Assembly: GCF_026151205.1 (NCBI RefSeq)
Contig: NC_087074.1
Span: 14,878,667-14,942,666, forward strand
Source of the DNA: Bolinopsis microptera
Taxonomy: Eukaryota; Ctenophora; Tentaculata; Lobata; Bolinopsidae
Reading direction: 5' to 3'
Length of the DNA: 64,000 nucleotides
Numbering within the stretch: position 1 is the stretch's first letter; each line of letters starts with the position of its first letter. The notes beneath the pieces were generated by a model, which was given only the letters and a program-made list of their open reading frames with translations, had not been told where the DNA came from and did no database searches. Shown in pieces: positions 8,923 through 39,600 of this stretch. Both the position numbers and the translations under genes were made by a program.

Positions 8923-11900
8923 GTAAGTTTCTCAGTTGTGTTATAATCTAAGCTATTCAATAAAATTTACTTGATATCGTGATAATCATTTTTAAGTACC
9001 TCATAACTAATTATCAGAGTTGAGACACAGTTAATAAACTGCGGAGTGACTAAAATGCTATACAGCAAAAACAGAACGCTCCAACCAAACACTCCACCTA
9101 CTGATCCTAACCACCCTAACAACTCTCTAGCTCTCTCTCTTCAACCCTCATTCCCTCACTCCTCTTGGTGCACAAAACCATTCTAACCTATGTATGTCCC
9201 CCTGACGGGTTCCACAAGCCCAACGGTACATAGTTAGACGAAAAACAGAGAAGCCTTGATTGCCAGATCAAGGACTGCATCAGTAGCAGCGAAATACGGA
9301 TATACCTTCTCCCTTACAGTCAGCGAGCTGACAACTATCTGACTGTGTCTTTTAGGCCTTGTCACACCACCTTCGCTATTGCATCCGCTCGCCCGTATTC
9401 ACTGACACATGCCACACCTGGGTTTAGTATGAAGATGTACGCATATTCACCCAAGATGCGGAGATGCCTCAGTTTAGCGAGTTGAGATACAACAGCAAAC
9501 TCACAGGAGCATGGATCAGAATCATCAGTTACCAACCTGACACCGTTTCGGGGCTTTAATCGCAATACGGTTTCCTGTCAGGCGCCCCAGCAGTCCACCC
9601 TTGAACCACCATCTGATCCGAGAGTCACTTGAGGAGACCCGTTAGAGCTCGCAATTGGCGACGAGATAACGTTTATGGTACCTCTAGATGTTATAGTGAA
9701 CTCTCAAGCTCCAACCTTCCTGAACTCCCACTCCCTCTTTCTCGATAACAAGTAGATCCATCTGGAACAGTGGGCTGCCTCTTTCCCACTGTCCCGTACC
9801 AGCTTCTTCAGCTCTCTTCCCCTAAAACCAATCCTCCTCGCAGCTCTCTCCAAACTCTGCGCAACCACTCCCCTAGCTCCAACTTCGACTGCGGCATTAT
9901 AACAGCACCAACCTTCCGCCTGAATCTCAGCCTGCAGACCGCTGTATCGGTCGAGCTTGTACTCGTGCGATTCAGCGATCCGCTCTTCAGATGGTACTGT
10001 TAGCTCCCACCAAATAACTGTCTTTGCCGACCTTGAGAATATCACAAGGTCCGGCCTCAGCCGTGTTTCCACAATCTCACTGGGAAACTTAAGCTGCCCC
10101 TCAAGGTCTGACAGCACTATCCAATCCCGATACCCACTCAGGATCCCAAAACCACGACTATCCTTCCGGTCGTCTGTACCTGCTTTTCTTTTCCCAGCAG
10201 GAACAAAATCAATGAACTGCCTTCCATCGCCGGCCTTGTTCTTATAAGTGTTCACTCGGCGATCACAATGGAAGACAACCTGTTCAGAGATCTGCTTCAG
10301 AACCTTGTCGTGCCGCCATCTATACCTTCCTTGACTAAGGGCCACCTTACACCCAGCCAAAATGTGCTGAATGGTGCCCATCCTCTCCTCACATAACTTG
10401 CACTTCCCATCCTCATCTTCACTCCACTTGGAAACCATAGAGGGGGTTAAGAGGGTGCCGTACACAGCACTTAGCATGAACCCAATAAGTGAGTCACCAT
10501 ACTTAAAAACTAATTATCAAAAAGAGATAGAAATGTCACAGCTTAAGAATACGCCTTAATCAACCAGGTACGAATCTTTGGAAGAGCTAAAAGAAGAAAA
10601 GAAGCGAAAGAAGTTGAATTGGAACAAAATTCTGGAGCTGGAAAATAACCACAAACGAGAAGAGAAAGATAACCGGAAGCGTTTAAACCGTTACGAGGGA
10701 CGAGTCGTGAGATACGATCACGTGATTCAGCTGTTCCACCTGTATTCCTGCAAGATTCTCACAGCATCACCCAGCAACACATCTTGCACTGAGCCGAGAA
10801 ACTTTGCCTGTTATCTAGACTCGGACCCCAGTAAGCACAGCCGTTTTAAGGTCATCCCCGCAGTGGATGGCTACGATCCTGGAGACCCTGTTAATCACTC
10901 AGACTTCATCAATTTGTACAGTGACCCAGACGGGTTTGTCGGCACTAGTGTTCGAAATCTAGATCCGATCCAAACGCTTTATCCACCACTCCCAGAAGTA
11001 TTCATAGGACCTAGAGGCGGAGGTTTTTCTATCAAGCTCTACAAGGAGAAAGTTGAAGTAACAGCAGAAAATGCTTTGTCTCAAAACACAGTACTGGGAG
11101 GCGACCTGGTTCAATTTTACAACAAGAACTTGAACCTTTTCTTGGCTGCCGATGAAAACAATAATCTAATTTTGAAAAAGCCAGCCTCCGGTGAATTAAA
11201 GAACTTCAGTTCATTTGCCGATAGTTTCTGGGTGGTTAACAAAATTAAAGCTAAGTATTCCTCCCCGCTCAAGATTTGCTCAGGGTCCAGCACAGACCAG
11301 GATATCACTCTCACGAACTTTGTGACGGGAAAGAAGGCCATATTCCCTTCTGGTCATGATCAAACTTCATTGAAGTCGCTGATAAAGATCACTACTTTAG
11401 ACATTAAATCAGGGGATTGTTTAAAGATGTTTGCAGGAAAGTCCTGGTTGAGTTTCGGAGGAATTGAAAGTGACGGATTCACAAGAAAAATCATTTGCAT
11501 TGACCACAGGGACCATACAGATGTTTTTACTATCCATAAGATAGATGCTTCCACAAAGCAGCGTATGTTTAAACTTCTGGGCTTCAAACTACTTCTCACA
11601 GTCATTGAAACCAGGTGCAAAAATAACCAGCTGACAGAGGCGCATCTTGAAAACATCCTGTCAGCATTTCAAGAAATGCACACCTTTATTGAAGGACTGA
11701 AAAAGAAGACTGAAGTTTACGAGAACTGCTACGCTTTGGGCATCACAACATTGTGTTTCAACATTTGCAACATGTTGATCCCACAGATGCAGGAAGGTCA
11801 AGGATTCAAAAAGGACGTGGAGTGGATGGTGATTCTCATCAGAGACATGATGAAACACACTGGAGAACTGCTAGACAACCCTGGATTAGACCTCACCAGG

Positions 11901-14900
11901 AACCTCTTCATTGACAAGTCAGGAGTAGGACTGGAAGCTTTCCTGAATATCATCAGACATAATGTTAACCTGGTGTCCCTGATTCCCACTGATTTGGTTG
12001 AGAGTATTGTTGAGGATTACACCACCTCAGGGAAACCCATCTACCTTAAAGTGCTCAGAAAGCTCTGCAAGTGCAAGAGACAGGCAGTTACAAGCAACCA
12101 AAATGTAATCATTAAATCGCTGTTGGGCAGTAAAATTCATCAGCGATTTATCCAAATACAGCACAGCAAGGGTCAAGTAAGCGTTATGTATGGAAGTGAA
12201 TGGATTTTATTGACTGATCTTACCGAAGTGAACAACAGCCAGAACTTCAAGGATTTCCTCAGCCAACTTGATTTAATCAGAAACATGTTGTTTGGAAAGA
12301 ACTCTGTGGGAAAAGAGTTGATCGTGGGGAAGTACAACATGTTTAGTGAAGATGAGTGTGTTGATGTGATAACAAATGAGAAAATAGATGTCGAGGTAAG
12401 GGATTTTTTCTTAAAGTCGATATGTTTAAATCGAAAAACTGGAAATTATTCCATAATCTTTTTTACAATCGCCAAAAATCGTAAACACTTCACTACCAAA
12501 GTATCAGTTTTCAATATTTTATTGCGTCATTTGACTCATATCCTCTTGTATTAGTCCCTCCAAACCACATTGCTTATTTTCAGATTCGCAGTAGATACAT
12601 AAAAATCTTAGTAGCAGCCCACATCGATCACGAAATAAGGACTGCAACTTTTGAACCTAGGATGCTGTCGTACCAGCCCGTGAAGAAGTCACCAGAACAA
12701 CCTCCCCAAGCGAGGGATATCTACTCTGTTCTTGATAAGTGGCTAATCCAATACGTGGAGAACAACACCAACGTAATCACGTCGCAAGAGGTGAGAATAA
12801 ATTGTCATAACTGAAACATCTTTTACAAACGTCTCTGAAAACCAAGTGCCTGAAATTTATAAAATAAAATTGCAGTATAACACATTGAACCAAAACCTCT
12901 ACTCTTAAGCCGTTATAAGCCTAATACATTTACTAAATTAGTAACTGAGTTACTTCCTCCAGGAGAACAACCAGTTTAAGAACAGTGTGATAATGTTGGT
13001 GGAATATATGTTTAGGAAAGAAGACCTCGACATCAGCAGCAGCCACTTGGAGAGGTACTTAGAGTTGTCATGTGTTAAAGAATACATTTTAAAGTTACGT
13101 GAATATGACAAATTATATCATTGAATTAACAGTTTGCAAGAAAGAACAGGAGATTTTCATTATTCTTAATTTTTTGGTAATTATTCCAGATACATTAAAG
13201 CACTGATTAAATGGTTGGACGGAAGGTTAGATAAATATTACGAAGAAGAACATGATAATGCCAGTAAAGATGTATTCAGAAGAATTTTCAGGTAAGGACC
13301 TTACCTCATCATTTAATTATCTAATTACCTCATTATCTAACATAAAATAAGTAAAATACTGACAAATGAGTAAGATACTGACTAAACATGAACAAACATG
13401 AATCGAGCCGTAAAATAATGCCCTATGGCGGTGGTTGTGGTTATGGTAAAATCTTGGTTATTCTTACATTTAACTCACAGACACATTTCAGGTTCCGAAA
13501 TCTACCAGAAAACAGAAAATGTAATGTCATCAAACAGCGAGTACTGGAAACAATTCACCTGGCATTTTGGCACTGTCTGACACATTTCTGGGAGAGAACA
13601 ATGGCACCCCTCTACTCTGCTCTTGCAGAAACCTCCTCAGAGGGTCAGAACAAAACTTTGGACACCTGCCAGATCAAATCCAATATATCGAGTGCTGTTC
13701 AAGGCGTCCTCCCAATAATGACGCTTACTGAAGCAGTTTCTACTACTCTCAACATGAAAGCTTGTGAAAACTTGAGGGATGATTTCGAGTCCAACTCTAA
13801 AGGAATCTCTCCATCTGCCGCATCGGCGTTTATAGAGTTTCTTGAAGATCTTCTGGGTGACATTTACCTGTTCTCTGAGACACCTGACATAATGACAGTG
13901 ATATTAGACACCCTGAACTACGAGTCTGATTATCTTACTACTAGGTTCGTAAAACAAAGCTCACTACAATATAGCATATTTCTGTGGTCACCAATTCCTA
14001 TAAAATCTTATGTAATTAATCTTGTAATATTTACAATCATTAATATAATATGCCATATGGAATCCTCAATCCGAAAGTGGTTGATCTCACAATTTTACAA
14101 CATTTTGCAGAGCAACAGAGCTGATGGTCCATCTTTTTTCACCAATACATAAGCTGTTGGCAATTCTGCCTAATACGAGGATCATGATCGCAGAGGAAAC
14201 TTTCCAAACCAGAAAAGAGATCACTGAGAACTATCTCCAGATCAGGAAAATAGCCACCGATCCACTCACGTAAGTTTTGATGGCACGTTAGAATCGTAAT
14301 GACTTATCTGCTGAGCCCTGGGGAGAGGTATTTAGCTTAACAAAACTGTTTATTTCAATATTCAAATATCAAAATTGGTGTTTGGCGCACTGATAAAACA
14401 AGACTTAAATGTATGAAAGTATTTAGGACCTTTATTTAAACGAGTTATTCCGACAGGGAAAAGTTGTTAGAGAAAGTGATCTTGTCGATGAACAAGCTTA
14501 GAGAATCTTGCTTGAACGAGGACAACAGCATAAACAAGACGATGCAGAAATTTGTGTTCGATCTTGGAACGGTGAAAGAGATAATCCGGATAGTGCTAGC
14601 TAACAGAATTACCATCTCTTCCACCTATTTACCAACTGATGCCAATGATTATATGGACGAAAAATTACTTCAACTCAAGATTGAAAGCTTTCGACTTCTG
14701 AAGGTAAGGTTGTCGAAGTTTCTGAAATTGCTGATAATCTCAACCAAATTTCTTGACGGAATAACAAATACGCAGAAAATTAACCAAAGTCTCAGTCTGA
14801 TGATCTTATAACACGACGTTATAAACTACCCAAATTAAAATTCAGGTAGTCATCTCTGGTTTAGACCAAGGGCAAGAGCGGGTGATGGAATACTTCAAAG

Positions 14901-17900: not shown

Positions 17901-20900
17901 ACTTATTAAAAATCACCAAAAATGTTCACAATTTTTTGGAAATTTTTGGGCGGTCGCATGAGCGTGAATAATGATGTCCGTGAAAAATTTGGTCCGTGAA
18001 AAACTTGTCCGTGACAATTATGTCCGATAAGGTAGTATGTTCCGGTGTGCGTGGTCGTGAAACTAACTCCTTTTATCTATTTACCTTTCCCTCCTCATGT
18101 AGAGTAAGAAAACAGCGGTTTATAGGTGTTTGGTAAGATATTGCATGAAGCAAAGACACATAATTGAGAATTTAACAATTTGATTGATTAGAAATCAAGG
18201 TTTTGATGAGCCGTGAATGTGTTGAAAAAAAGGTTCCCTAATAATTATTTCAATTGATTGAATAAGCTGACACAATTTAGTAAACAACTATTTAAGCAAA
18301 GGTTATCCTAGAAATAATTATGATTACATCAAATCACACTTTAACAACTACGACGCAATGATCCCATTTAACGTTAAGCATGTATAATGTATATTGCATG
18401 TATGATTCATCGACGATTCTTAATGCACCTCTTTTCTTCTTAGTTCTTGCATATCTGAGTTTACCCATGCATCTTTTCTTGAATCATCATCAAATAACTC
18501 GATCTTAATAAATGATATTTAAAACAAAAGCAAAAGTAGAAGATAAAGCAAAAGTAGAAGATAAAGATCAAAAAGCAAAAGTAAGTTGCTAGTAACCCAA
18601 CTGTTCAGCAACTGCTGGGGAATGACCTGTCCTGGTATGTTAACGAGGGTATAAAGCTGGTGGAGAGGGTTACAAAGCACCTCAGGAGTTGTACCACCAA
18701 CCAGAAGATGACTTATCTCAACGTGTTGGGAGACCTGGGAACCCAGGTAATATTTGGGGTTATCATTAATAATGTATGCGCATATTTCGGATAGTTTCGA
18801 ATCAATGCATTGATTGATGAGATGACTTAGGACAGTCAGACCGTGTCGACAAGAGCATATTTTCTCCGTATTCCTGTACTGTTGCCATACAGATGTTATT
18901 GAATGCATCGCAAAAATCATAGAAATTAAGGTTGAGCTACATAATTTGCATCTTTATAATGTATCCATTCATCCTTATTTTATAGATGAATGGAAAGAGC
19001 GACTATGCCCGAAATGCCACTATTGACATTGTGGTATGCAGTCATGCGGGATAATGCTTAGACATCTGCTTTTACAGAATTTGTTTCACTGCACCAGTGC
19101 ACCGTTATCAAATAGGAGCACACTGTGAATGACCCAGTTTAGAAATAATTTCTTACATTAAATAAAGTAAATGGAAAGGCCTTGATAAGTGAAAATTGAA
19201 GATGAACAACGAATTTTAAAAACTAAGAGGAGGGCAGAGGAGGTTGGGACATTTGCCCGTCAAGTCGGGGGCATTGTTACATCAATGATCATAAATTTTG
19301 TTTTAGATAAAGCTGCTATCGAGTAGAGACGACGTTGACGCAGCCCTGAAGGACCTTGTTTGTTATTACGACTACATATTCTTTGTCCTTTGTCCGATAA
19401 TAACCAATATATTCAGCTCTGATAAAGAAATGGTGAGTCATCATGAACAAATCTCTGTACACACGTCGAATTATATCGACAATAGTTTAATAACTCATGC
19501 AGTACGCTCAAATATATAAGTATTTAGGGATTTCACCGAAACGGCTAAAGCTATGAGTTAAAATTAATTGAATCACTCGGATATTGGGCTAAGATCATAA
19601 ATTGACTCCTTTCAGGTACTACAAACCTTCCAAGACGTGGATAGATTTAACATGATGAAACAGCTCTGTAAATTTGGGAAGTTTGTCTCGCCCTTCCTGC
19701 ACCAAATGCTGTGGACCCTCCTTTTCGAAGCTGTTCAGGCAGTGAACGTCATTGATACTCATGACCTCACTGACTTTTATTTCTCTGATAGGAACAACAA
19801 AATGTACCAGTTTCAAACTCCTGGCTACCTGATAATGGTATGTTATCAACATCTTAGTTCTTAAAGCTTACGTTTCCTTCTTCAGCATTCTTTAAAAGAG
19901 TATTGAAATAAAATGTTTTCCACTATAACAATCACTCCATTGTAGGTCGACAAACCAGTGGTGTTTAATAAAGAAGTACAAGACGTGATGGATCTACTGC
20001 TGAAGAAAACAGGCTACAGACTGAAGGAGGCCTACACCAAGAAGATAATGAAAGAAAACAAGGAAGCAAGCATTAACACTGCGTTTCACAAGATAGCCAA
20101 AGCTTTGATACAGGTACATGAGTACTTAATACTTATTGAAATTATCATGACACACTTTCGGCTGTTTCAGATTGCTTCGAAACGGCATTTCATTTTACAA
20201 AGTGTCTCATTTACATCCTTCTGACAGATCACGGAGAAGCAGAAGGAGGGTAAGAGTGTAAAGATGAGTGAGGAAGTTAAGGGACTTGGAGGTATTATGT
20301 TTGAAGAGGCAGAAGAGTCAGGGAAAGCAGACGCCCTTACTAACTTCGCACCATTCTGTGACGATGAGGTTAGTTAATAGTGCAGCACATAGAATACTTT
20401 CCAATAGAGCTCCCATCAGTGCTACGTGTCCATTAGGTCTGGCTACTGATTCAATATTCGCTCTCATAATTAACACCCCAATATTACAGTGCAACAAAAC
20501 GGTTCTCTTAATAAATCTGCCTCCAGGAGGACGATTTCGATACCCACGAGCCAGTACCACAGCTGACTAAGATAATAAGTAAGGTTGAGAATGAGGAGTG
20601 CTCCGACTACACCACCATCAGACTTATTAACGTGTTCGCTGCTCTGGCGGAGGATAGTAACCGGACCAGGGTAAGAACTTTTAATGTTTTGATCTTTCTT
20701 GTTACCAAGATAGTACCTTGTGAATTTGATGTTGAGCAAAACGATGAAAATGTCTGAATTGAAAACGTTGTTTTAATGAAGAATATCAAGGATTTGAACA
20801 AGGAATTAAACGACATGCCAACGAGCAAAGGGAAATTCAAAATAGCCGTGAGTTCATGTAGCTGCTAATCAGCATAATAACAGCTAATTAGCATAATCTG

Positions 20901-23900
20901 CTAATATGCTAATTAGCATACGCTAAACGCTGCTGTTTACGGAGGTCAAATTATAGGGGGCCAGCCACGTCGTGAATACTAACTGGTTGCGGGTGCACTG
21001 TCGTGAAGTAAATATTATCAATGTTCTTACTTCTTACTAATTCATGTGGCCAGTTTCTGATCAAGATATATGTGGGAAAAGGAAGTCTCCGCTCGATTTG
21101 TTATGGGTGATTTATATTCATTATTTAAATGTTAACCTAATGAATGTTGGATGCATGTTGCACAGTTAAATCACACGATCAATGTTATTCATATTGATCC
21201 ACCAGTAAACCGAGTTACTATTATAATAGTATGTATGCAGATGAAATAATCAAATCTCAGATTGAATTTGACAATTAATGTTGACATGATTACTGGTACT
21301 GGTAGATCAATCGCTAGTTTATTTTTTTAAATGTTGGATCACATGGGACATGGTGATTTCTTGTCACCATGGTGATCTCTTGTCACACGCTAGTTGCTAT
21401 GAACATTGTAAAGCTGAAGAGAGAATGAATGAGATTCAAGATATAAGTATAACCAAGCTATGAAACGCTTACAAATCTATGATTGTCACTTTCCTACCTG
21501 TATGTTTACTCGATCTGCAACAAAACACGTAAAATATTTCTTTACATGGTCTATAAACGTGGTCACATGACCTACACTCCACAGTGTTCCCCAGCCACCT
21601 CCCTCCTCCACCTTGGTCTGACAGAAGCACTGGGAAGTCTCATGTCCTCCTGTGAGAACGACCACATCCAAGAGGCAGTGACGGAGTGTCTTCTCTCTCT
21701 GCTCCAGATCCCCACCACTAAAAACAGGTTTGTCACGTGGTCCGGTGTTTGTTTATGTGGGGAAAGCAGAATCTAACGTTGTGTTTCTGCATTATTCCGC
21801 TCAGTTTCTGTGAATGATATCATACCAACTTTTCTAGATGCTTATTAGAACATGGGAGAAAAGGAGGTGTATGCAAGGCAAGGTTTGGGAAAACTTTCTT
21901 TGCATGAGCGCCGATATGTTACTCGTAACTCTCTTGAACGCGATCTTATCTTCTATGTGTAGATTTCTATATGTAAATTTCCATGTATATGAGAATGCTT
22001 ATAACTTTACCTTCCAAATTTATTTCAGTAAGTGTCTATCAGGAATGGTTAAAATGTCTAAATAATTTTGCGATTCTTTTCTATATGCTTGGCATTGACA
22101 TTTGGCATGCGATATTTATGTTCATAAAATTAAATAATGTCCACGCATTACGTTACATTTGCGTTTAATACACCACTACAATTGAAATAGCTGGCGTAAT
22201 ACATGGTGAATTGTTAGCCTTCAAATATTAATAGGATCGTCTCAGGGTTCGAGAAATACTAATGATCAAACTATTCAAGTGACCAAACAAATGAAAAGAA
22301 CAAGTACTAAAGCCGATTTAGCCGTGTCAGGCGCCAAAAAGCCGGCCATCGTAGCCGAACAATTAAATATTCTGAGTAACTATTGTTCAGAAAAAATGAA
22401 GATGAAAAATTACCAAAATTGATTGAGCCCGTTTTTATGTCCTAAACGTACGACAGTGATGTTACTGCACCCATCCCCAGGTTAAGGGAATATTGTCAGA
22501 AGACGGACGAACCATTGTTTGAATGGGTCTCGGAGAACATTGTGGCTGCTATTGAAGGTGAGGCTTTCAGATAGACTTTAATTGAGATGATCATGACTGC
22601 AAGAATAGACCGTTCTGCTAAAAGATACTGTTATGCAGTTGTTGTTTGCAGAATTGTTCACTTTTGGATTCAGAGCGTAAAAATGTAACAGTAATGGTAT
22701 TGTAATGTTTTGCTAGGTATACTGTATATCTTATTGCATGATTTAACGCGTGGGATGAAAATTATTGACATAAGTTTAAATAAATTAATTCAATGTTACA
22801 GAGATAGAAGTATTTTACAGTAAGTTACACTGCGTGTAATAATAACTTTAATTATTTTGATCTTGATCTTTTCATCGTCAAAATCTTCAATACGATAAGA
22901 TCGGCTTTGGTTAAATCTGTCTTTGTTGAATTCTGAAGCAGAAAGGTTTCAATTTCCTCTTTAAAGGCAGAATATAAAACTAATTGGCGACAAGCCGTTA
23001 TTAGAAGTAGATTGTTCGCCTTCTTTGCGTTATTTTCTGATTTGTACTTAGCTATAGTGTTTATCAGTATTATCCATGAAGTACCTGACTCAAATCCACA
23101 ATGACAGACCATGGTCGAGTGTGGTTCTTTGAAATAAACCTCTATTATCTGTGAAAATCCTCAGGAATGTTTAGCTGTTTCCTTTAATCAAGCTCAATTT
23201 ATTTCCCTTTATATTTGAAGTGTTCTGTTTGCTGCTTTTGCTGTATCAATCGAGTGTTCGAAAAATAATTTCTCGACATTTCATCAGAAATTCTGACACC
23301 CTCAATTGCACCGACTCTGATCCTAAAACTTGACCTTAAGAGCAATACTATAACCAACAAGGAACCCTAAAAGTAAATTAATGATGTCAGTAAGAAATTT
23401 TGGGGATTCTATACGTACACAATACACATGAAAGTAACAAATGGACTGTTCAGGTAACAACCAGTTGAGCATGATACAAGCCATGCGGGACAGAGCAGGA
23501 GTTGACGGCATGACAGATGATATCGGGATAGTATCCTCCACCCCAATTATCAGACTGTCCATTCAACTGATCGGTGCAATGTGTGAGGGCCAATATACTG
23601 AGATGCAGGTAAGTGTAATTTAAATAAGGAGGTTGCCGTTATGTAGATTAAATACTTCACAGCGTTTTGAAATCACCGCGATACTCAACCACAATACTCA
23701 ATTAACGCCCATAATTCAGAACTATCTGCGACTCCAAGACAACAAGTTGGTATCTCATAACTTCCTGGTTATGTTGATCAGACTCCTTCACTGCGTGAGA
23801 TCGGGGGAACTCCTCATGGATACCATGAAAGCGATCAATTCCATGATATCGGCTAATGATGCGGCGAAAGAAACTGCTATTGAAAACGATATAGTAGAGA

Positions 23901-26900
23901 TATTGAACACCATCATTGCTGCAGAGGCACCAGGTTACTTTCAAATGCTTGTTAGGGGAAGTGAACTGTGATATCTAGCATTAAAAATTAAAACAAGGGT
24001 AACTAAAATCTACCAAATTAAATAAAATCAAGATTTAACCGGTACTTGAACGGCATAGATCATTTAGTTAACCCTTAGCTAAATGTATGGTATGATTTTA
24101 ACTGTCAAATTTTCAGCTAACGACTTCGAAAATGCCCAAGAAATAAAAGCAAACGCCTATGCACTCTTATCAACACTTGTTGAACAATCCAACATGCTCT
24201 CTGAATTCTACGACAAGGTTTGCAAGAAAACTTGAAATGTTATATGCATGCACAAATAATAACGTCTGGAAAACCCGAAAGAATTTTCTCGCTGCAGAGA
24301 ATATTGACAAACAATTATTTTATATTTTTAGGTAAGAGAGGAGCTAGACATTTACACACTCCAAAGTGAAATAAACAGCCATCTTGGATTACTGGGTACG
24401 GAGGGAGGCGAGAAGGCTCAGACAGCTGCTTTCAAGGGTTATGCCTTACTCAAGAAGATTAGTGCTTTGGAGAAGAAGGATTATGTAGGGAAGTTAGACG
24501 AGGAGATATCTCAAAAACTAAAGGTTACAAATCAACATCTAGACGAGATTTTTATTGTGAATAGCGATATCAAGCTTGCCTTAAGTAGACATAGTACGGT
24601 TAAATATGAAGTGAGCTCTTTCGATTTTTACCATCTCAAGTGGAGTATAAGAAACAACTGTTTTAAACCATGAGTGGCTTCATGATATTACAACAGGTTG
24701 GAAGCGTTGAAGTTCAATGGAAGGGACATCTGGAGAAGGTATACTATCCAATACCAAAGAGTGGCCAAGTCAGGAACAAAATACGGGAGGAACTTAAGTG
24801 GGGTATTGATAGAAAATCGAAGTTTGACAAACAACGAGATTTTCTCATCTGGAGCCAAGAGGTCAGCCTTAAATCCTATATCAGATTGATAAAGACCTGA
24901 AATTTTAATTATATGTGATTCAAATAAATTCTACGAAATTTAAAACCACCGAAAGTTAACAAATCTCTCTTTATCAGATTGTAGAAGACGTGGCTCACCA
25001 GCGTTACTTCATGTCCGTACCTTTTATCAGTTGGGTCATGGCCCATGAGATCTGGTGGGATTGGCTCGTCTTCCTCATAGCTCTTGTAGTCCAGGTATCT
25101 GGCAAGATGTGTAAATAAGATTAAACCGTGCAAGCTGCCTCAGTTCGTTTAATTATGGCGGGTTAATTTGGCGGTTTTTCGGAAAAAACCCGCCATTATT
25201 TTTACCCACCACAATATTACACGCCATGAATATGCGAATTAAGGTATATAACATTCTCTTTCAATTTAGAATAATTTAGTTACCGTATCTATGTAACATG
25301 AATATTGAATAATCCACACGAATTAACACGGAAGATTGAAGGCAATGTTTACTCAGCTGTGGCTCCTGAAAGAATGGGTGGACGTTGACTGGGTGGTTAC
25401 CCCAAACGGGATTACCCCAGACGGGGTTAGAAATGAAACTTACCTGGAGACTGTACCTCCGCATCTTGTTCAGTGTTATGATAATAAGAGAAATGGCGGA
25501 AAGGAATCCTACGTTGGGGTTTGTCCTTCGGAGGGCTTCTACTTCACGATAGTGTGTTTAGGTAAGGTGATGTTTGTGGGAGAGCTAATATAGCAGAGAT
25601 TGTTACGGAGTAAGAACAGTGTCTTATAGCCATTTTACTATCTTGAACTTTTAAATGAAATAATATAGAAGGATCCGACAGCAAATATTGGCCGAAAAAC
25701 CTAACTTCGGATTTGGATAAGAGTCGCTGTCGGACAAGACTCGCCCAATCATTTATTTCAGATTGAAAAATGTTAAATAACTAAGAAAATCAAACCTGAT
25801 CCCACCCAGGAACCGTACATTTGTTTGCCTGCATATTCCTAACCTTAAGCTACGTACTCTCCAACTACCACAGAATCTCGCTCAAGTTTAACCCAAACAA
25901 AAGGATGAATATCCAGTGGCATTCCTTCTACCACTTTTACCTACTTGCACTTCTTATCTGCAGTTGTTTAGGCATATGGTAAATATACTTTCCATTTATT
26001 GCATTTTTAATGTAACTTTCAAATTGAGAATTAATATAGTTATAACATTATTCTGTTGTTTATCTAAAGCTGAACTATTACTAATTTCAGGTCAGATGGT
26101 ATTGCGTACTGTTTCCACTTGTTCCACATTGCTACTCTGTTTGACTTACTCGGAAGGGTCATTCGTGGAGCAACCACCCATGCCGACCAGCTTTTGGTAT
26201 CTAAAATATTACTTACTTGAGTACCATAATTTACTAATTTTAATTTTACAATTTAAAAGTACACAATCAATTTCAAATTTTAAAGAAAACATATTCTAAT
26301 ACTGCGCAACGAAATGTAACTACATTCCCGCTGCACTTTCCCCAAGCACACACTGCACATGCACCACACAGCTTTCTAAAGCACTCAAGCTTCAGCGCTA
26401 AATCCTATTTCAGTTCTGCTTTCCTTTTGCGATTTTTGTCACGTATGCATATGCCGTTCTATACACGGTAACAGTGCGGGACATCTTTGATGAAGAGGAG
26501 ATGGAGTATTGCACCACCACATTCCAATGCTTGATAACAGTGCTGCACAAATCCCTCCAGCCGGCCGGGGGAGGCCACAACTATAGGTTGGTGCTGCACT
26601 GCTGATCTCCCCTTCTCTCTTCTAATCACCTTTACCCTGTATCTTTCAGGTGTGCGTTCCTTTCGCAGCCATTATTGCCTACATTTACGCCATTATATAC
26701 TTTGGTGCCTTCCGGAAAATGTTTGACAATACAAAAATGGAGTATTGCGATACACTAGGTCGTTGTCTTGTTACAGTGCTGAAGAACTCGTTGCGACCTT
26801 CGGCAGGCGGTCATAACTATAGGTACTAAACCAAGCATAGCCAAACTGCACCAAGCTATAACTAAATGTACTGTAGATCCGGGTGCTGGTTGGGAGGGGA

Positions 26901-29662
26901 AACTTGGTTACCACGGTTACCACGGTTTTGCTCTGACACGTGACAGGTATTAACCAATCAAAACACAAGATCACTGTCACGTGTCAAAACAAATATAGTT
27001 CACCTTCCCGCCAGTATTTAGATTTATACGAAGCATAGCCTAACTGTACCTAGCTATAGCTGTTGTAGTATTTCAAAGAATGATATATGTTGTTACGTAG
27101 CATTTGTGGGAAAATACGTTTTTAATGGATGCTGTTTAATGTTTAATGTTTAATGTTTATGCCATAAATTATTATTTATGGGCTTGTTATGTATGTGAAT
27201 GTTTGTTGTTATCTCGTGGGATGTAAAGCCAATGAAAGCAAATAAATTAACGTCGCTGAAATTATGATTATTATATGGATTACCATTAAATTAATTTTTG
27301 TTTAAATGTATTTTCAACAATTGAGGATAGAAGGTATCATGATATGATCTTCAACGATAGTATCTTCTAAGTTTATCATTTTAGTCACACAACAAACATT
27401 TCAGTTGGAAAGACAGGAAGACATTTGATGACCTTTGGATGCGTTTACTAATAGACGCCAGCTTTTGGATCCTATTCACTGTTATTGGTCTTAACGTGGT
27501 GACCAGTTTGATCTTGGACGGGTTTCGTCAGCTAAAGGTCTGTCAATTATTCATGTCAAAGCTAAACCGTTGCCTAATGTGTTGCAAATTTATGAGAATG
27601 AAAACTTCTTGTGCGGTGAAGAACTTGTCAGTACCGTATAAATATTAAATACCTCTCAATTTGTCCTCTGCCTAATACGTTTCCTGACATATTTACTGAA
27701 AATCCTCAAATAATTCCACGAAGGTTCTATTTATAGTGGCGGTTCTATTTATATAGTTCAGTTTGACAGAAACTAAACAGGGAACCTTTAAAAATACCAA
27801 ATGAGGGAATAAATCTGTTTATCACATACTATTTACGGGAACTAACGACACATTGTGCTCAGACAGAATTGCCTCTTTATTCTTTAAACTGAACGACTAA
27901 AATGACCAAGCACACCTTTTATCGCATTGAATCACCTCACCGACACTTCTGACATCATACTGTTCCTGCAAGGCGAAGCAGCAAAGGGTGCGGCCAGGCT
28001 ACAAGCTTATGGCAGCCTCACTCTTGAAACTATCGCCTTCAGGAAGGGAACTATCAAAAATCATACCACTATCAACAAACAATTCATGGCAGACCTCATT
28101 ATCCCACCTAGAGCAACGAGAGACCTAACAACACCAACCATGATGCTGGGACGGCACTTCACCGTCACAACAAAAAGCAGATGAGCTGGCCAAGCTTGGT
28201 ACAACCAGTGAATCCACTTTGAAGTGTCCAATTCCACAATCCTACATCAAGCGTCAAATCGACAACAAAGTCAACAGACTGAATCAGGAAACTTGGTTAA
28301 CTGACGGTCCCAGACACACCAAACTGACAATCGGCCACAAGCATGCCAAAATCATCAAAAACCTCAACACTACACTCAGCAAAAACAGACAAGATTACAG
28401 AACTGCAGTTCACCTCATCACGGGTCACTGCGGCTTAAACAAACACCTTCACACCATTTGCAAATCAAACACCAGTGCTTGTCCTATGTGCGGCGACGGA
28501 GAGGAAACTGTCTCACACTTCCTTGGACAGTGTCCAGCTATTGCCCAAATTAGAGGTCAATATTTCCAGGACTACTACCTCTCTGTCAATGACATATTCG
28601 ACAACCAACACATCACCACAATTGTCAATTTCGCAAACCGCACCAAACGCTTAATTGTGCCGGAAGAGCTGGATCAGACCGGGGTGACTTAAAGTATTAT
28701 CTCATATGCTGTCTCGTCTCGTTTTACTTTTCCAAACCCAGCTGGCATTTAAGCGTATCATTTTGACTCATATATCATCTTACACCATCCTCCACCAATC
28801 ACTCTGATTTCACCGGCAACCTTCCCCAAGGTTGCCACACCCCAGAGGTAGGCAGAGCATCTCAATGCTATCCTCTCGTGGGCTATCTTGGCCCAGCCTC
28901 TCTTAAAAAAAAATATATATATTTACTGAAAATCCTCAAATAATTCCACGAAGGTTCTATTTATAGTGGCGGTTCTATTTATATAGTTCAGTTTGACAGA
29001 AACTAAACAGGGAACCTTTAAAAATACCAAATGAGGGAATAAATCTGTTTATCACATACTATTTACGGGAACTAACGACACATTGTGCTCAGACAGAATT
29101 GCCTCTTTATTCTTTAAACTGAACGACTAAAATGACTCCAGGCTGAGCGAGAACGAGCGCTAAAAGACATGACTACCTTGTGTACAATTTGTGGCCTCTC
29201 TAAAGATTCTCTCACTACACGTGGTGTGTCCTGGTCCAATCACGTGGAGAGGGAACACAATATCTGGTCCTATGTTACCTTCTTTTACTACCTCCAAGAG
29301 CACGATGGTCGATTTTCTGCCGTGGAAAATGAGGTTTGTTTGAACTCCGAACTCTAATCTCTGAACGAGAAAGTCCATATGTTTGGACCTGATTTTCAGT
29401 TTCACTTCCAACGTACTAATTGTACTTTCAATCACGCTTGTTAAGTTGGAAGTGGAATAATAGTACTTTTCCTCCATGATGGTTTCTAGAGTTAATACAC
29501 GTCAGACATAATCATAATACCAAAAGAGAATCAAAATTAAGCTACTTTTATAACTCAACAAATATTCAGGTCCTGAAAAAGTTCCAAAAAGCGGATCCCT
29601 CTTTCTTGCCCGCAGGCCGCTGCATATCAATCGACACCAAGATCGATCTGGAAAAGAAGTGA
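8726..29662 (+). CDS. IP3-receptor-family intracellular Ca2+ release channel
   Basis: Complete multi-exon gene for a tetrameric ER Ca2+ channel of the ITPR/RyR superfamily, about 2,470 aa against about 2,700 for vertebrate ITPRs. Exons: 8726-8922, 10568-12395, 12584-12790, 12963-13054, 13190-13291, 13492-13944, 14111-14269, 14457-14703, 14846-15035, about 15135-15348, 15528-15698, 16500-16590, 16720-16848, 18609-18746, 18986-19033, 19307-19432, 19616-19837, 19946-20113, 20228-20368, 20527-20670, 20782-20847, 21585-21727, 22481-22557, 23454-23608, 23663-23933, 24117-24217, 24332-24523, 24697-24861, 24978-25094, 25357-25561, 25810-25978, 26091-26196, then 26414-26586 or 26650-26822, then 27405-27537, 29142-29333, 29570-29662. 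All junctions keep frame with GT-AG except the exon 9/10 acceptor, which is unclear. Domain order is N-terminal beta-trefoil, MIR, RIH repeats, RIH-associated helices, six-TM channel, C-terminal CxxC/HxxxxH linker. Several weakly conserved helical exons could have slightly different boundaries. Family confidence is high; gating ligand is not established. Confidence 0.93.
9018..10507 (-). mobile_element. 5'-truncated RLE-type non-LTR retrotransposon
   Basis: The insert lies antisense to the channel gene. It contains the C-terminal coding part of an endonuclease-bearing retrotransposon followed by about 0.7 kb of 3' UTR (9018-9703). The direct repeat aactaattatca flanks it at 9005-9016 (adjoining the 3' end) and 10508-10519 (5' truncation point), as expected for a target-site duplication from target-primed reverse transcription. 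The 3' UTR is homologous to 56716-57108 in this window, so the family has at least two copies here. No polyA tail is evident. Confidence 0.75.
9704..10477 (-). pseudogene. C-terminal fragment of retrotransposon: CCHC + restriction-like endonuclease
   Basis: A 257-codon open frame, the 3' remnant of a larger ORF whose reverse transcriptase is lost by 5' truncation. The segment CKLCEERMGTIQHILAGC fits the C-x2-C-x8-H-x4-C zinc knuckle placed just before the endonuclease in R2/NeSL/Dong/Hero-type elements. Downstream RPDLVIFS and WELTVPSEER fit the RPD...E/D PD-(D/E)XK nuclease core that nicks target DNA. The frame has no internal stop, which suggests a fairly young copy. The first in-frame ATG is not a real start, because the family's ORF begins far upstream. 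Assignment to a particular RLE clade is not possible from this fragment. Confidence 0.8.
10568..12395 (+). CDS. channel exon 2: MIR domain and first RIH region
   Basis: A giant 1.83-kb exon covering about residues 66-675. It starts with a charged helix, then GRVVRYDHVIQLFHLYS, the ITPR beta-trefoil/MIR signature, with a second MIR-like element at GGDLVQFYNKNLNLFLAAD. From about residue 350 it becomes helical (RIH). The RTTGR-type loop that binds IP3 phosphates in vertebrates is replaced by a LKKPASG-like stretch after this MIR repeat, and a SQQDYRKNQE-type basic helix is not recognisable. These comparisons are from memory. It ends with a complete codon before gtaagg. Confidence 0.88.
12584..15348 (+). 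CDS. channel exons 3-10: RIH solenoid part
   Basis: Eight short exons joined in frame: 12584-12790, 12963-13054, 13190-13291, 13492-13944, 14111-14269, 14457-14703, 14846-15035 and about 15135-15348. They encode helical segments (for example NSVIMLVEYMFRKEDLD, VLPIMTLTEAVSTTL) as expected for the ITPR modulatory armadillo-like solenoid. Junctions rebuild codons correctly, often Arg across AG|G or AG|A. Exon 9 ends one base into a codon, but no AG lies at the right phase before the exon 10 frame (FKIVEKLITLFKNK), and an in-frame TGA sits at 15131. The exon 9/10 junction therefore needs transcript evidence. Confidence 0.75.
15528..21727 (+). CDS. channel exons 11-22: central modulatory region
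   Basis: Twelve exons: 15528-15698, 16500-16590, 16720-16848, 18609-18746, 18986-19033, 19307-19432, 19616-19837, 19946-20113, 20228-20368, 20527-20670, 20782-20847, 21585-21727. They join without stops. Sequence is helical and only weakly recognisable (RGWQGLYFTHMISLMACCVV, NVLGDLGTQ, FGKFVSPFLHQMLWTLLFEA). This central part varies most among ITPR homologues. A charged, flexible stretch (20228-20300, rich in Glu and Lys) probably forms a surface loop and may be a regulatory site. Exons 15 (48 nt) and 21 (66 nt) are very short and could be alternatively spliced, since both start and end in phase 0. Confidence 0.72.
17546..17664. mobile_element. MITE-like palindromic element, family with gacacgtgac core
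   Basis: Ends are gggaggtg and its complement cacctccc, with inner inverted repeats cgacacgtgac and gtcacgtgt and an ATATTT/AAATAT segment in each arm. A second family member lies at 26892-27009 in intron 34 of the same gene, so the sequence is dispersed and mobile. It has no coding capacity, and no clear target duplication was identified. Confidence 0.65.
17737..18036. mobile_element. MITE with actaccttatcgg termini
   Basis: About 30-bp terminal inverted repeats: the left end reads actaccttatcggtcataa and the right end is its near-perfect complement. Inside the right end, gtccgtg recurs three times. A 19-21 bp sequence ending ggtcgtgaaacta lies just left of the element (17721-17739) and again 9 bp to the right (18045-18065), suggesting a duplication linked to insertion. 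No ORF. The termini resemble those of the element at 40111-40693 (taccttacaagac). Confidence 0.65.
20861..20925. repeat. cluster of GCTAATTAGC-type palindromes
   Basis: Intron 21 of the channel gene contains four imperfect copies of gctaattagcata within about 65 bp, including the perfect palindrome tatgctaattagcata. TAATTA is the core homeodomain site and ATGCTAAT resembles a POU octamer. Whether this is an intronic regulatory element or a simple repeat cannot be decided from sequence. Confidence 0.5.
22481..24861 (+). CDS. channel exons 23-28: RIH-associated domain
   Basis: Exons 22481-22557, 23454-23608, 23663-23933, 24117-24217, 24332-24523 and 24697-24861. The stretch LNHNTQLTPIIQNYLRLQ parallels the ITPR RIH-associated segment with ENHNRDLQNFLR, and EIKANAYALLSTLVEQ parallels its LELKNNASKLLLAIMES helix. 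Exon 28 begins VGSVEVQWKGHLEKVYYPIP, matching the ITPR linker (IEIVR...EQIVFPIP) just before S1. The intron between exons 24 and 25 is only 54 nt, the shortest in the gene. All phases are consistent. Confidence 0.85.
24978..26196 (+). CDS. channel exons 29-32: S1-S4 membrane segments
   Basis: Exons 24978-25094, 25357-25561, 25810-25978 and 26091-26196. S1 is near IWWDWLVFLIALVVQ. A luminal loop with several Cys follows in exon 30, then a hydrophobic run FYFTIVCLG continuing into VHLFACIFLTLSYVL. Next come FYHFYLLALLICSCLGIW and the S4/linker FHLFHIATLFDLLGRVIRG, which matches the ITPR S4-S5 region (LLFDLVYREETLLNVIKSV). Exon 32 ends in phase 0, which fits both alternative pore exons. Confidence 0.87.
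26414..26586 (+). CDS. channel exon 33 (pore variant A): S5, pore helix, filter
   Basis: A 173-nt exon in phase 0 in, phase 2 out. It encodes S5 (FCFPFAIFVTYAYAVLY), a short acidic luminal linker (VRDIFDEEEMEYC, net about -5), the pore helix (QCLITVLHKSL) and the filter region QPAGGGHNY. ITPRs and RyRs have GGGVGD or GGGIGD here, so the triple Gly is kept but the following Gly-Asp is not. The last codon is completed by exon 35 (AG|T, Ser). It is paralogous to the next exon, and splicing both in series shifts the frame to a TAG in the second exon, so the two should be mutually exclusive. Confidence 0.88.
26650..26822 (+). CDS. channel exon 34 (pore variant B): alternative S5, pore helix, filter
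   Basis: Also exactly 173 nt with the same phases as exon 33, starting 63 nt after it. S5 is VCVPFAAIIAYIYAIIY, the luminal linker FRKMFDNTKMEYC is net about +1, the pore helix is RCLVTVLKNSL and the filter region is RPSAGGHNY. About 30 of 58 residues equal exon 33. The first filter Gly is Ala here. Good acceptor (tttcag) and donor (AG|gtacta) are present, and there are no in-frame stops, so this is a maintained exon rather than a dead copy. Confidence 0.87.
26892..27009. mobile_element. second MITE-like palindromic element of the gacacgtgac family
   Basis: Arms gggagggg/ccttccc, inner repeats tgacacgtgac and gtcacgtgtc, same architecture as 17546-17664. It sits in intron 34, right after the alternative pore exons. 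Diverged flanking repeats containing aagcatagcc and agctata lie at about 26832-26862 and 27032-27062. An internal ggttaccac dimer is specific to this copy. Confidence 0.6.
27405..29662 (+). CDS. channel exons 35-37: S6 and C-terminal zinc linker
   Basis: Exons 27405-27537, 29142-29333 and 29570-29662. Exon 35 encodes S6 (WILFTVIGLNVVTSLILDGF), where ITPRs have VIIIVLNLIFGVIIDTF. Exon 36 contains CTICGLSKDS and HVEREHNIWSYV, matching the conserved ITPR/RyR C-terminal CxxC...HxxxxH zinc site (CFICG...HIKEEHNMWHY). Exon 37 supplies a short tail ending EKK and a TGA at 29660. The tail is shorter than the coiled-coil tail of vertebrate ITPRs. No canonical AATAAA was found close downstream. Confidence 0.9.
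27689..27906. repeat. 218-bp direct repeat, left copy (target-site duplication)
   Basis: Identical over all 218 bp to 28919-29136. The two copies bracket a retrotransposon fragment exactly, so they are best explained as an unusually long target-site duplication. The copy reproduces the pyrimidine-rich tract upstream of channel exon 36 but not its acceptor AG. Confidence 0.9.
27907..28918 (+). mobile_element. 5'-truncated LINE fragment with RNase H tail (I/Jockey-like group)
   Basis: A 1,012-bp insertion in intron 35, sense to the channel gene. It holds two frame-shifted coding remnants and about 0.23 kb of 3' UTR ending in an A-rich tail that runs into an AT run. The tail region (agcatctcaatgctatcc, ctcgtgggc) is homologous to 48895-48995, so the family is dispersed. 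The 5' end is truncated within the region between reverse transcriptase and RNase H. Confidence 0.85.
27927..28692 (+). pseudogene. remnant of LINE polyprotein: RT-RNase H connection, RNase H tail, zinc finger
   Basis: The first frame (from about 27927) contains FLQGEAAKGAARLQAYG, typical of the segment between RT and RNase H in I-group LINEs. It ends at a stop near 28182. In another frame, ADELAKLG is the end of RNase H, followed from 28219 by a C-terminal domain with GHCGLNKHL and ACPMCGDGEETVSHFLGQC, a C-x2-C...H-x4-C zinc finger found at the end of these proteins. The catalytic RNase H core is missing, so there is an internal deletion plus a frameshift. The fragment is non-functional. Confidence 0.8.
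28919..29136. repeat. 218-bp direct repeat, right copy (target-site duplication)
   Basis: Perfect copy of 27689-27906. It ends five bases before channel exon 36 (29142). Because the duplication carries the original sequence upstream of the acceptor, the exon keeps its pyrimidine tract and branch region despite the insertion. Confidence 0.9.
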
Positions 29663-30263
29663 TCAGGGGTTGAAAAACATCGATTGTCCGAAAATGAAAG
29701 GTATATGCCCAACACGTCGTTTAAGAAGAAAGTCAAAGCTATAAAGTAGATAAGCTGTCAAGATAAACTTGTTAAGTTGCCTACAGTAGAGATTGATGTG
29801 AAATCAGAAAAGGTGGCGAATAAGAACGATAGAAATGAGGAAATTGTGCCAGCTTATGCTTTAACACAGGGATAGTTATTTTATATACAGATTGGAGCAT
29901 GAATTATGTGCTTGATTGAGGTTTATTTGCCGTATTTCATGGGAATGCGATGTTGTTGTGAATTTTCATTTATCATATCATTTCAATTTAGTTAGAATGG
30001 ACAGAATTGTTAATTTTTGAAAACTCTAATTATCAATTTAAAGAAAGAAGGTGGTTAGGAAACAAATATGGAATATATCAAGGAGGTTGATATAGATCGT
30101 CAGTATGGAAAGATTATTATCTTCGCAAACACGTGATATTACAATGAGGGACAGTGACAACTCGATTTACACCCACGTCCAACTACTTTTACATTCGAAT
30201 AATAATTGGAAAAAAGTTGAAGGGTCATTCAACAAATTACGTGCTTTCTGCCTGTAGCATAAA

Positions 30264-30434: not shown

Positions 30435-31671
30435 TTACGAACTCTGCCTGTTCAAGTGAAATGAAACCTTGTTCATTGGACTACGGTCCCTCATAAAAGT
30501 AATGATAAGGGACAACTTAGTGGGGTTACCTTTCTTATTTCTAATAGTCATCACCCTCCTGAAGCTTGTGTCCCGCAAGATGTAGATAATAGGTGTAAAC
30601 ATACAATGTACCTGAAGTAGAAACCTAAAAACAAGGTACATTTCTGGTGAAATCTTAGCGTGTAGTGGGGTAAGAGCGTAGGGAGTGGAACACACCAAGT
30701 ATCCTCCCACAATCAACAACACAGTCTGACAACTCCTCCTCACTATAGCTGAACGTTTCCCTGTCTCTCTTATCTGGAGGAGGATTATCAGGACCACTGA
30801 TGACGTCACAAGTATAATGAAGGGTAAGTACATGGACAGTATGGACTCCATGATGGAGAAGTTAGAGTCCCGGATGGTTGTGTGGACCTGAGGACCTGGT
30901 CTGTGCATGGTGTCGTTCTCAACCTCCTCCGCTATCACCACCACACACATGGACTCTGGAGGGTGAAACGAGTAGATGATTTTAGTCAAACCGAACACTT
31001 GTGGGCCGAGAAAAGCAAGCAAAACAGAGGAAACCCACGACATCACAACCTCTATCTTGATAACATTCCTGGTTACTTTTCTCTTGTATCTTGCACCGTA
31101 AATCACAACCAGACACCGGTCCAGAGCGATACAGGACAGTGTCATGTAGGAAGCGTACACGAACATGGTGGAGAGAGGTCCCACAAAGTGACAGGGGATC
31201 TCCCACATTTCCGAGAGGTCGTGGTATTTGTTAGTGTGGAGACACGTGGAGATGCCTGCTATCAGGATAACGTTGCTGACCAGTCCTACAAAGAGATCTG
31301 CTATTGCTGTGTTCATTACCAGGTAGTGGGCTTGTACTCTTTTTAACCTGAAATCGTGTATGTTTTAGCGTATTGCTTTTAACAGGATAGCAATTAGGGT
31401 CTGCTATTTTATAATTGCAGTTGTTTGATGGCTCAATGGACTTATAGAGCTATGTAACTTTGGCTTCTTTAATAAAGGCAATAAGTAACGCCTACTTAAA
31501 GTATGTAAAAAGTAGAACTGTTATTTACCGTTTGCAAGCTACAAGGACCACAATGTTGAGGAGTATAGTAACGGGAGTACAGATCACCAGGAACACCAGG
31601 GTAACTGCTCGAACTGTCTGGTGGGTCAGTATCTTCTCCGCGGACAGTGGAACGGTGTAGTTTGACACCAT
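30435..31671 (-). CDS. class A (rhodopsin-like) G-protein-coupled receptor
   Basis: Two exons on the minus strand: 31671-31529 (start ATG at 31671, TM1) and 31347-30435 (TM2 to stop), joined through an Arg codon CG|G, giving about 351 aa. TM1 is VTLVFLVICTPVTILLNIVVLV. TM2 has NTAIADLFVGL with the conserved Asp. TM3 has an extracellular Cys (EIPCHF) and ends CIALDRC instead of DRY. TM6 is LLIVGGYLVCSTPYAL without CWxP. TM7 is CMFTPIIYILRD with TPIIY in place of NPxxY. Unusual microswitches suggest altered activation. Several families (peptide or glycoprotein-hormone-like receptors) are possible, and the ligand cannot be assigned. It is convergent with the channel gene, about 770 bp away. Confidence 0.88.
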
Positions 31672-37595: not shown

Positions 37596-39600
37596 TTAAG
37601 ATGTAGCTCTCTCGCGGAGTCGAAGTCGGGTTCCCACCTTAGGGCCCAAGGTGATCCTAAACTCTGGCTCTATATCTTCATCTGATGGGGCACTCAGTTC
37701 AAAATGCTGGAGTATTTGACCCACAACAATTTTTATCTCATTCATAGCAAATGTACTACCGATACACTTTCGAGGACCAACAAGAAAAGGAATGTAAGTG
37801 AACTTTTTAAGGGACTCTGTTTTTAAAAAGCGTTCAGGTTTGAAACTTAAGGGTTCTGACCAGATCTCCTCTAGCCTGCCTTGAAGGAAGGGAAGGAACA
37901 TCACTTGGGTGTCTGTGGGTATCAGATGCTTATCTATAATGCTATCAACATTAGTACTACGTCTTACAAGCGATACTACTGGGTACAAGCGCATAGCCTC
38001 CTTGATGACGCACTCCAAGTAGCTCATCTCCGAGAGATCGTCTTCATCAAGAAATTGTTTGCCCTCAACCAGGTCCGTCATCTCCTGAGCAGCCCATGCA
38101 GATACTCCTGGATTACGGGCCAGCAGGGCCAGCACAAACGACATGACATTGGAAGTAGTCTCAAATCCTGCCACGATGAAAGTCACGAAGTCGTCCACAA
38201 CTTCCTCGTCAGAATACCACGGACTGTTTTCTTGTATTCTGATCGAATGGGCTAAGAGGTCAACAGGAGTTTCTAGATTTTGCTTTATTTGATCACGCCT
38301 ATGCTTCAAAGCATCATGTCCAAGCCTTCGGAGGAGGCATCCCGCTTCTTTCGTCTTTCTTGTGAGATGACGGTTCATGGGATTATGTAAAAACAATGGA
38401 TCAAAAGCTTCACCAAAAAACCCATCCATCATGTCATTCATGGAATCCAGGATTTGTTCCATTGATACGTCCTCTCTATTATTCAAGTCGATGCCGTATC
38501 CTATGCTTGCTATGAGCAAAATAGCTGACTTCTTCATGTACCAATCCATATCTATAAAATCATTTGCATTGGTATTTTGTTTCAGCTGTTCAATCATGGC
38601 CCTTGTCATTTCATTCATCTTGGGAATCAAACTCTGTAGATACTTCTTGTGAAATGCAGGGTCCAGCGCATGCCGCTTCCTTCTCCAAACGTCTCCACCC
38701 ACATTATTCAGGAGACCACCATACCCCGTGAACCGCTGTCCACCAAAGTAAGTCAGACTAGATTTCTGAACCTTATACAGTCCACCGTTAGTGATGAACA
38801 TATCTTTGATCCCGTCCACCGAAAGCACTACCACTCCTGCAAGAGAAATGGCACGTTATCATGACGTGACTTCACCACATATTCCTAAATTTTTGCAATT
38901 AAATTGTCATGTGACTGGTCAAATCAACTAAAAGTTATAAATACCTGCTTTCCAAAATAGAAACCGACACCAAATAAGGCCATAATTCTCCGTCCATTTG
39001 AGATAGAGATTAAACATATGTCCGTCCTGTTTCGTAGCTTCCTTGATTACAGGAAAGTGACCGCCAATAAAACTGAAATTACCCTTCGTGTGAGGGCACA
39101 CACGGCAAAAATATTATATATTGATAATATATATTGCATATATCACGTGTTATTAATATTATATATCACATATTCCTGTGTTTTAAAAAATTGCAATAAA
39201 ATCTTATTTTTATGGTTCATTAAGATTAAATTTAATCGTATTCTCGTTTCTGTTTTTAAATAGGACAAACATCATAGTGGCCCACTATATGATGCGCTTT
39301 TTAAAAACTATAGTAGTGGGGAAGTGATTAACCAATCAACTTATGTTGAAATATTAAACCTAAACTGTTCAGATTCCGTAGATTGTTCACCAATCCGGTT
39401 TCAAATATGCTTTAGCTCTTATATTGTCATTACGGTTAAGTCGATTTTTACCATATAAATAACAAACGCTTGTAACAATGTTACCTAGACAAAGGAGGCA
39501 TCGGGAGATGCTTGTACCTTCTACGTTTCATCTTAAGAAGAACTACCCCATATACCATCAGGGAGCCGAACGCCAACAATATCAAACCAACGAACAACAT
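37596..39600 (-). CDS. CYP46A-like cytochrome P450
   Basis: Three exons on the minus strand: 39600-39485, 39072-38945 and 38836-37596. They join in frame (AG|T, then G|GA) for about 494 aa, close to the 500 aa of vertebrate CYP46A1. Exon 1 encodes an N-terminal membrane anchor (LFVGLILLAFGSLMVYGVVLL) followed by basic residues and a proline-rich hinge (HLPMPPLS), so it is an ER monooxygenase. Further motifs are FIGGHFPV, the I-helix FIVAGFETTSN, the K-helix EAMRLYP (ExxR), the FKPERF segment and the heme-thiolate loop PFLVGPRKCIG with its Cys ligand. All catalytic residues are present. CYP46A1 hydroxylates cholesterol at C24, but this similarity was judged from memory and CYP4 or another clan remains possible; the substrate is not established. 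Confidence 0.9.

Follow-up and report, generated by a model that had tools for sequence, protein, structure and literature searches.

A tandem pair of pore exons, candidates for mutually exclusive splicing, in a divergent channel gene of the IP3R/RyR family from Bolinopsis microptera

The window analysed here is a 64,000-nt stretch of contig NC_087074.1 from Bolinopsis microptera, one of the ctenophores, a lineage that is perhaps sister to all other animals. It contains a large channel gene, for which a model was assembled by hand from positions 10400-22000 and 22000-30000 and checked with a script (table 1). No start-codon exon was found for this 35-exon model; it would be expected upstream of 10568. 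Two neighbouring exons, designated A and B, are candidates for position 32 of the 35. Several other features were seen in and beside the gene. The intron that follows the S6 exon (27538-29141) carries a direct repeat of approximately 200 bp, seen by eye at 27690-27883 and 28925-29137, which brackets a retroelement-like fragment with an open frame at 28144-28692. Two long single open frames lie beside the gene on the minus strand, one cytochrome P450-like (37596-38855) and one GPCR-like (30435-31364), both named by eye. A long minisatellite at 42384-48358, which translates as TNLTL or CKIGQ repeats, flanks a reverse-transcriptase-like open frame (43619-47251, likewise named by eye) on both sides, and the GC skew over 42001-44000 is 0.54.

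Table 1. Features of the channel gene, in coordinates of the window.
Feature	Coordinates	Strand	Remarks
Host gene, 35-exon model, 2,399 codons	10568..29662	+	introns GT-AG; open with A or B; start-codon exon absent
Large exon with N-terminal Ins145_P3_rec and RIH domains	10568..12395	+	
Upstream constant exon (S4 / S4-S5 region)	26091..26196	+	assigned by position and weak alignment; phase-0 donor
Exon A (candidate alternative exon encoding S5, a luminal loop with acidic charge, the pore helix and the filter GGGHNY)	26414..26586	+	173 nt, phase 0/2
Intron separating exons A and B	26587..26649	+	63 nt
Candidate branch point, motif CTAAT with its A at 26625	26622..26626	+	motif match only; lies 38 nt downstream of donor A and 24 nt upstream of acceptor B
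Exon B (candidate alternative exon encoding S5, a loop of near-neutral charge, the pore helix and the filter AGGHNY)	26650..26822	+	173 nt, phase 0/2; more ancestral-looking copy
Downstream constant exon (S6)	27405..27537	+	
Exon of C-terminal CxxC...HxxxxH zinc-finger-like domain	29142..29333	+	aligned with IP3R
Last coding exon including stop codon	29570..29662	+	

The tandem exon pair, with a reading frame that accepts one copy only, is a confirmed observation. Two adjacent exons of equal length and phase without stops had been predicted, and the coordinates, the AG and GT that bound each exon and the open frames bear this out. In the spliced gene model, either exon singly gives 2,399 codons followed by the terminal stop. 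Placed in series, A and B run into a stop at codon 2297, within exon B, at the 'gatacactag' that had been foreseen, while skipping both brings a stop at codon 2211. The two proteins share 29 of 57 whole-codon residues, or 30 of 58 when the shared junction serine is counted, in agreement with the earlier estimate. At the DNA level 101 of 173 nt (58%) are identical and 72 differ. A haplotype duplicate as the source of the pair is excluded by so low a DNA identity. Chance resemblance and annotation artefact could also be dismissed, since the similarity between A and B reaches a tblastn E-value of approximately 1e-19 and a self-scan of the 35 exons against window positions 8001-31000 (E <=0.01, with exon B representing the pair) gave two off-exon matches, exon A and an unrelated one at E 0.008. 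When the flanking introns were compared (blastn, word 7, E <=1), the intron between A and B gave one 8-base match with the downstream intron (E 0.51), and the intron upstream of A matched neither of them. The duplication is old, because the flanking introns have lost their mutual resemblance.

Each exon had been proposed to encode S5, a luminal linker, the pore helix and the selectivity filter. This was upheld: the pore helix and filter are homologous to those of IP3R and RyR, and an S5-like helix comes first. AlphaFold models of the exons alone, used for helix positions only and with the first codon of exon B (GTG) read as M, placed helices at residues 3-24 and 36-48 for A and 3-25 and 36-47 for B, both with low confidence (mean pLDDT 58.8 and 56.7, respectively); the two predicted helices per exon fit S5 and the pore helix. 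Between them, the 12-residue loop of exon A (RDIFDEEEMEYC) has a net charge of -5 and that of exon B (RKMFDNTKMEYC) a net charge of +1, as had been anticipated, and the translations also confirm the difference expected in the filter, GGGHN in A and AGGHN in B.

The original prediction assigned the gene to the IP3 receptor family. To the two ends of the protein, which were the parts scanned (all but some 940 residues in the middle), Pfam assigned Ins145_P3_rec, RYDR_ITPR (RIH) and RIH_assoc, in order and each above its curated cut-off; in the same two ends there were no RyR or SPRY repeats and no MIR match at E <=1. The Ion_trans model matched a 258-aa piece with exon B just above the cut-off (26.9 versus 25 bits) and gave no match at E <=1 in a 760-aa piece with exon A. 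By phmmer, the C-terminal 760 aa with exon B matched IP3R1 (E 6e-26) and RyRs (E approximately 1e-25); a 258-aa piece with exon A, searched against the PDB at thresholds of E 1e-22 (no match) and E 1e-15, gave ITPR2 at 7.9e-21. This signal is carried by the pore helix, the filter, S6 and the zinc-finger-like C-terminal domain. S1-S5 are weak, contributing 10.6 bits in the B form, and the S5 part contributes 7.5 bits in the A form. The model has the six-TM pore domain followed by CxxC...HxxxxH that is expected in the IP3R/RyR superfamily; its length is approximately 2,400 residues, compared with approximately 5,000 for a ryanodine receptor.

Other family hallmarks are absent. The GGGxGD filter is replaced by GGGHNY (A) or AGGHNY (B), without the Asp; in an ungapped alignment H-N sits at the position of G-D, and N-Y does so if the preceding proline is treated as an insertion, so that no acid is present either way. 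A 388-aa segment expected to contain the IP3-binding core had no PDB match at E <=10, which shows divergence and does not mean that IP3 is not bound. By these signatures, the host is a divergent channel gene of the IP3R/RyR family with an altered filter and not an ordinary IP3R, so the superfamily assignment stood and the narrower one did not. Because the expected core has no PDB match and the filter Asp is missing, the terms 'Ca2+ release channel' and 'conductance change' in the original prediction are kept conditional here. The genome also has an ordinary IP3R, on the minus strand of contig C5 (approx. 6.126-6.237 Mb), with the filter GGGIGDVLRRP. It resembles the window gene in superfamily, TM layout and C-terminal zinc-finger-like domain, but it keeps GGGIGD and has S5 and the pore helix in separate open stretches approximately 1 kb apart.

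A further comparison is offered by a paralogue 8.7 Mb distant on contig C3 (approx. 6.165-6.198 Mb), which has diverged from the window gene. It has a single pore exon at 6.19 Mb; bounded by AG and GT, this exon also accommodates 173 nt, and its filter is NGGHNY. This exon is identical to B at 33 of 57 residues and to A at 24 of 57, and 22 of the 57 columns are invariant across all three. Its loop has a net charge of -1 and shares the motif FDNxKMEYC with B, where A has FDEEEMEYC. Because B and the paralogue have this motif in common, the acidic loop of exon A looks derived. The most parsimonious account is that a single exon of this subfamily came to contain S5, loop, helix and filter, that the window gene acquired a second copy of this exon by duplication and that A diverged afterwards; as an alternative, the duplication may have preceded the split of the two genes, with one copy later lost in the paralogue. 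At the 5' end, from C3:6.165 Mb, homologues of window-gene exons 1, 2, 4 and 5 run contiguously and almost without gaps in a 953-codon open frame, a region in which introns appear to have been lost or never gained. At C3:5.24 Mb the 3' part of the paralogue recurs as a near-copy. Its S6 exon is broken and its pore-exon donor is lost (it reads AT), marking it as a visibly decaying duplicate.

Searches of the whole genome (264,652,675 bases, 232 contigs) with exon B plus S6 (8 matches) and with exon A (4 matches), in which the best candidates were scored, revealed no third pore copy and no pair in the paralogues. The matches listed were A, B, the S6 exon of the window, the single pore exons of the two C3 loci (6.19 and 5.24 Mb) and the S6 exon of the paralogue, with two remaining ones at E 0.195 and 0.99. 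Weak exon-A-like matches at two further loci, L012 and L021, proved to be repeats. A genome search with PF02026 (RyR) gave no match, and its control likewise matched nowhere. The genome also has a large glutamate-receptor-like family, found in at least 32 places, many of them single open frames of approximately 900 codons. Part of the solved glutamate receptor ML032222a, a Mnemiopsis protein by its ML prefix, is matched in this genome with 80% identity.

Coding constraint on the two copies shows in the distribution of their differences: 24 fall on first, 11 on second and 37 on third codon positions, there being 57 positions of each kind (Fisher p 2e-5). A codon model with one omega, fitted to A, B and the paralogue exon on three branches, gave omega 0.078 (lnL -574.76), and fixing omega at 1 everywhere was rejected (lnL -596.46, 2dlnL 43.4). 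Relative to a model with all branches free (lnL -574.24), omega = 1 on the A branch was disfavoured (lnL -577.24, 2dlnL 6.0, p ~0.014), while the B branch was indistinguishable from omega = 1 (lnL -574.25, 2dlnL 0.02); branch lengths hit their bound through saturation, so these values are rough and the A-branch test is weak. Neutral drift to 72 differences was also simulated, with 20,000 runs starting from each exon. The frame was open in 1,807 and 1,554 of 20,000 runs, at least 29 identical residues were kept by none of the 20,000 runs begun at B and by 2 of the 20,000 begun at A, and the two properties never occurred together in the 40,000 runs. Neutral drift over the entire path that separates A from B is thereby excluded, a very recent loss of one exon lying beyond the reach of the test. 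Judged from the coding sequence, A and B are shown to have kept their protein-level resemblance between the same exon boundaries.

The splice sites of the pair had been described as good, which holds for the acceptors: that of A scores above 17 of the 33 constitutive acceptors of the gene, and that of B above 30. It does not hold for the donors, which are weak and exceed 4 (A) and 2 (B) of the 33 constitutive donors; among 3,959 GTs in the window, 12% score as high as donor A and 16% as high as donor B. Weak donors are usual in regulated exons. They are also consistent with a fading exon, and this bears on the possibility that one copy is silent or dying, with splicing confined to a single exon (probably B) and the other persisting as a pseudoexon that decay has yet to erase. 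That the paralogue manages with one exon, that the near-copy at C3:5.24 Mb demonstrates decay within the family and that Pfam detects Ion_trans in the B form only all lend this some credit. Nevertheless, after changes at 72 of 173 positions both exons are open and all four AG/GT sites are intact, the drift simulation never reproduced that outcome at this level of protein similarity, and omega = 1 is disfavoured on the A branch, so we regard a silent copy as distinctly improbable.

How two such exons might be kept apart is suggested by the intron between them, which at 63 nt compares with 86-1,760 nt for the other 34 introns of the gene. It holds a candidate branch point, and a second CTRAY match 18 nt from donor A; CTRAY occurs 12-60 nt from the 3' splice site in just three of the 34 other introns. 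The preferred candidate is a motif guess, and its distance from donor A is below the approximately 50-nt steric limit known from OGDH. For that gene (PMC7969005), exclusive use of exons is enforced by branch points that lie 25-41 nt from the donor and so under the limit of approximately 50 nt; the paper also cites an alpha-tropomyosin study with a similar title. The branch point of OGDH exons 4a/4b is less than approximately 50 nt from the donor of the upstream exon, and the candidate here would give A and B a comparable geometry; unlike here, where we argue from intron length and a motif, exclusion in OGDH was shown experimentally (PMC7969005). Because the 63-nt intron sets the candidate branch point approximately 38 nt from donor A, we infer that exclusion would be chiefly steric. 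Nonsense-mediated decay would clear joined or skipped errors, and the weak donors would leave the choice between A and B open to regulation.

Both exons could also be in use with exclusion imposed by competing RNA pairing or tissue-specific splicing proteins rather than by intron size. Donor A (26582-26594) is complementary at 12 of 13 positions to 26848-26860, beyond exon B, but this pairing is no better than that of shuffled sequences, 50 of 200 being as low. Across five sites and two introns, each compared with 200 shuffles, one pairing, between the branch-point region and the downstream intron, had an energy reached by 1 of 200 shuffles, two stood at 10 of 200 and the rest at 50 or more. 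A single 1/200 result among 10 tests is weak, and although the set gives no clean negative, as a mechanism of exclusion RNA pairing is unconvincing. The steric limit suggested by the 63-nt length would, moreover, persist. We consider exclusion by pairing or splicing proteins unlikely.

A further reading takes the choice between A and B to be mainly an on/off switch, in which joined or skipped forms are made deliberately and destroyed by decay, so that the dose of channel and not its pore is set. It is in keeping with the premature stop that follows from using both exons or neither. A plain poison exon, however, requires no second constrained coding copy, and the loop charge differs systematically between A and B; such a switch seems to us highly improbable.

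The interpretation we favour, and hold to be probable, is that A and B are tandem-duplicated mutually exclusive exons in a divergent IP3R/RyR-family gene, with both copies presumably used, exclusion that would be steric and a pore that would be switched. It is supported by the equal length and phase of the exons, the frame trap for both or neither, the coding constraint, the intact gene and the short intron. The original prediction of mutually exclusive pore exons is in this sense partly supported: it fits the features that can be tested in sequence, and use of both exons in RNA would be expected.

If both exons are used, splicing would switch the pore mouth of the subunit between an acidic (A) and a near-neutral (B) state, and in a homotetramer the loops would contribute a mouth charge of approximately -20 with A and approximately +4 with B. 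Because the filter is without an acidic residue, the charge of the loop may be the main cation-concentrating feature of this pore. Such a switch could alter cation conductance or selectivity, and mixed tetramers would be possible. A broader scenario can be offered tentatively, as a possibility we think rather unlikely: a lineage of ctenophore IP3R/RyR-like channels may have lost the filter Asp, gained an exon spanning S5, helix and filter and duplicated it, leaving splicing to set selectivity. The acidic-mouth form would favour divalents, the near-neutral form monovalent or counter-ion flow, and heterotetramers would be graded, in an intracellular or another membrane.

The original prediction also held that no pore was known to be swapped by splicing. 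As a general statement this is refuted by NALCN exons 15a/15b and 31a/31b and by Cav3 exons 12a/12b. According to the excerpted text of Senatore et al. 2013 (PMC3557258), the NALCN exons are tandem and mutually exclusive, span the P-loop, give alternative filters in invertebrates and derive from what was ancestrally a single exon. NALCN is unlike the present case in being a four-domain channel in which the swap alters one of four repeats (PMC3557258), whereas A and B include S5 and belong to a subunit with a single domain, which presumably forms a tetramer in which all four loops can change. Cav3 exons 12a/12b are also alternative and modify the part of the S5-P loop that lies outside the filter, and Na/Ca selectivity shifts with them, but they affect the domain II turret only, differ in length and leave the filter untouched (PMC4436565).

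Within the superfamily, insect RyR offers a parallel, with mutually exclusive exons in a related channel. Three papers (PMC3342285, PMC3787966 and PMC3989282) place these exons between residues 1135 and 1173, which is distant from the pore, and the first two locate them in the second SPRY domain and describe stage-dependent use; a Tribolium pair, 19a/19b, is given by exon numbers only in PMC4204029. Genes with tandem exon swaps in human and Drosophila are described, again in excerpted text, as enriched for ion channels, with RYR3/Ryr/unc-68 included and no position given. No account of splicing that exchanges the pore of an IP3R or a RyR appeared among the listed titles, abstract openings and passages of the open-licence literature searched, so for this superfamily the original claim is tenable.

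Those who look for variation in IP3R and RyR usually turn to distinct genes or to alternative splicing that alters cytoplasmic domains, the insect RyR papers being an example. A swap extending from S5 to the filter, if true, would make the pore itself an adjustable module in this superfamily, with the four loops of a homotetramer altered together. Such a swap would also be convergent with NALCN and Cav3, reached by a similar route, in a genome that keeps an ordinary IP3R as well.
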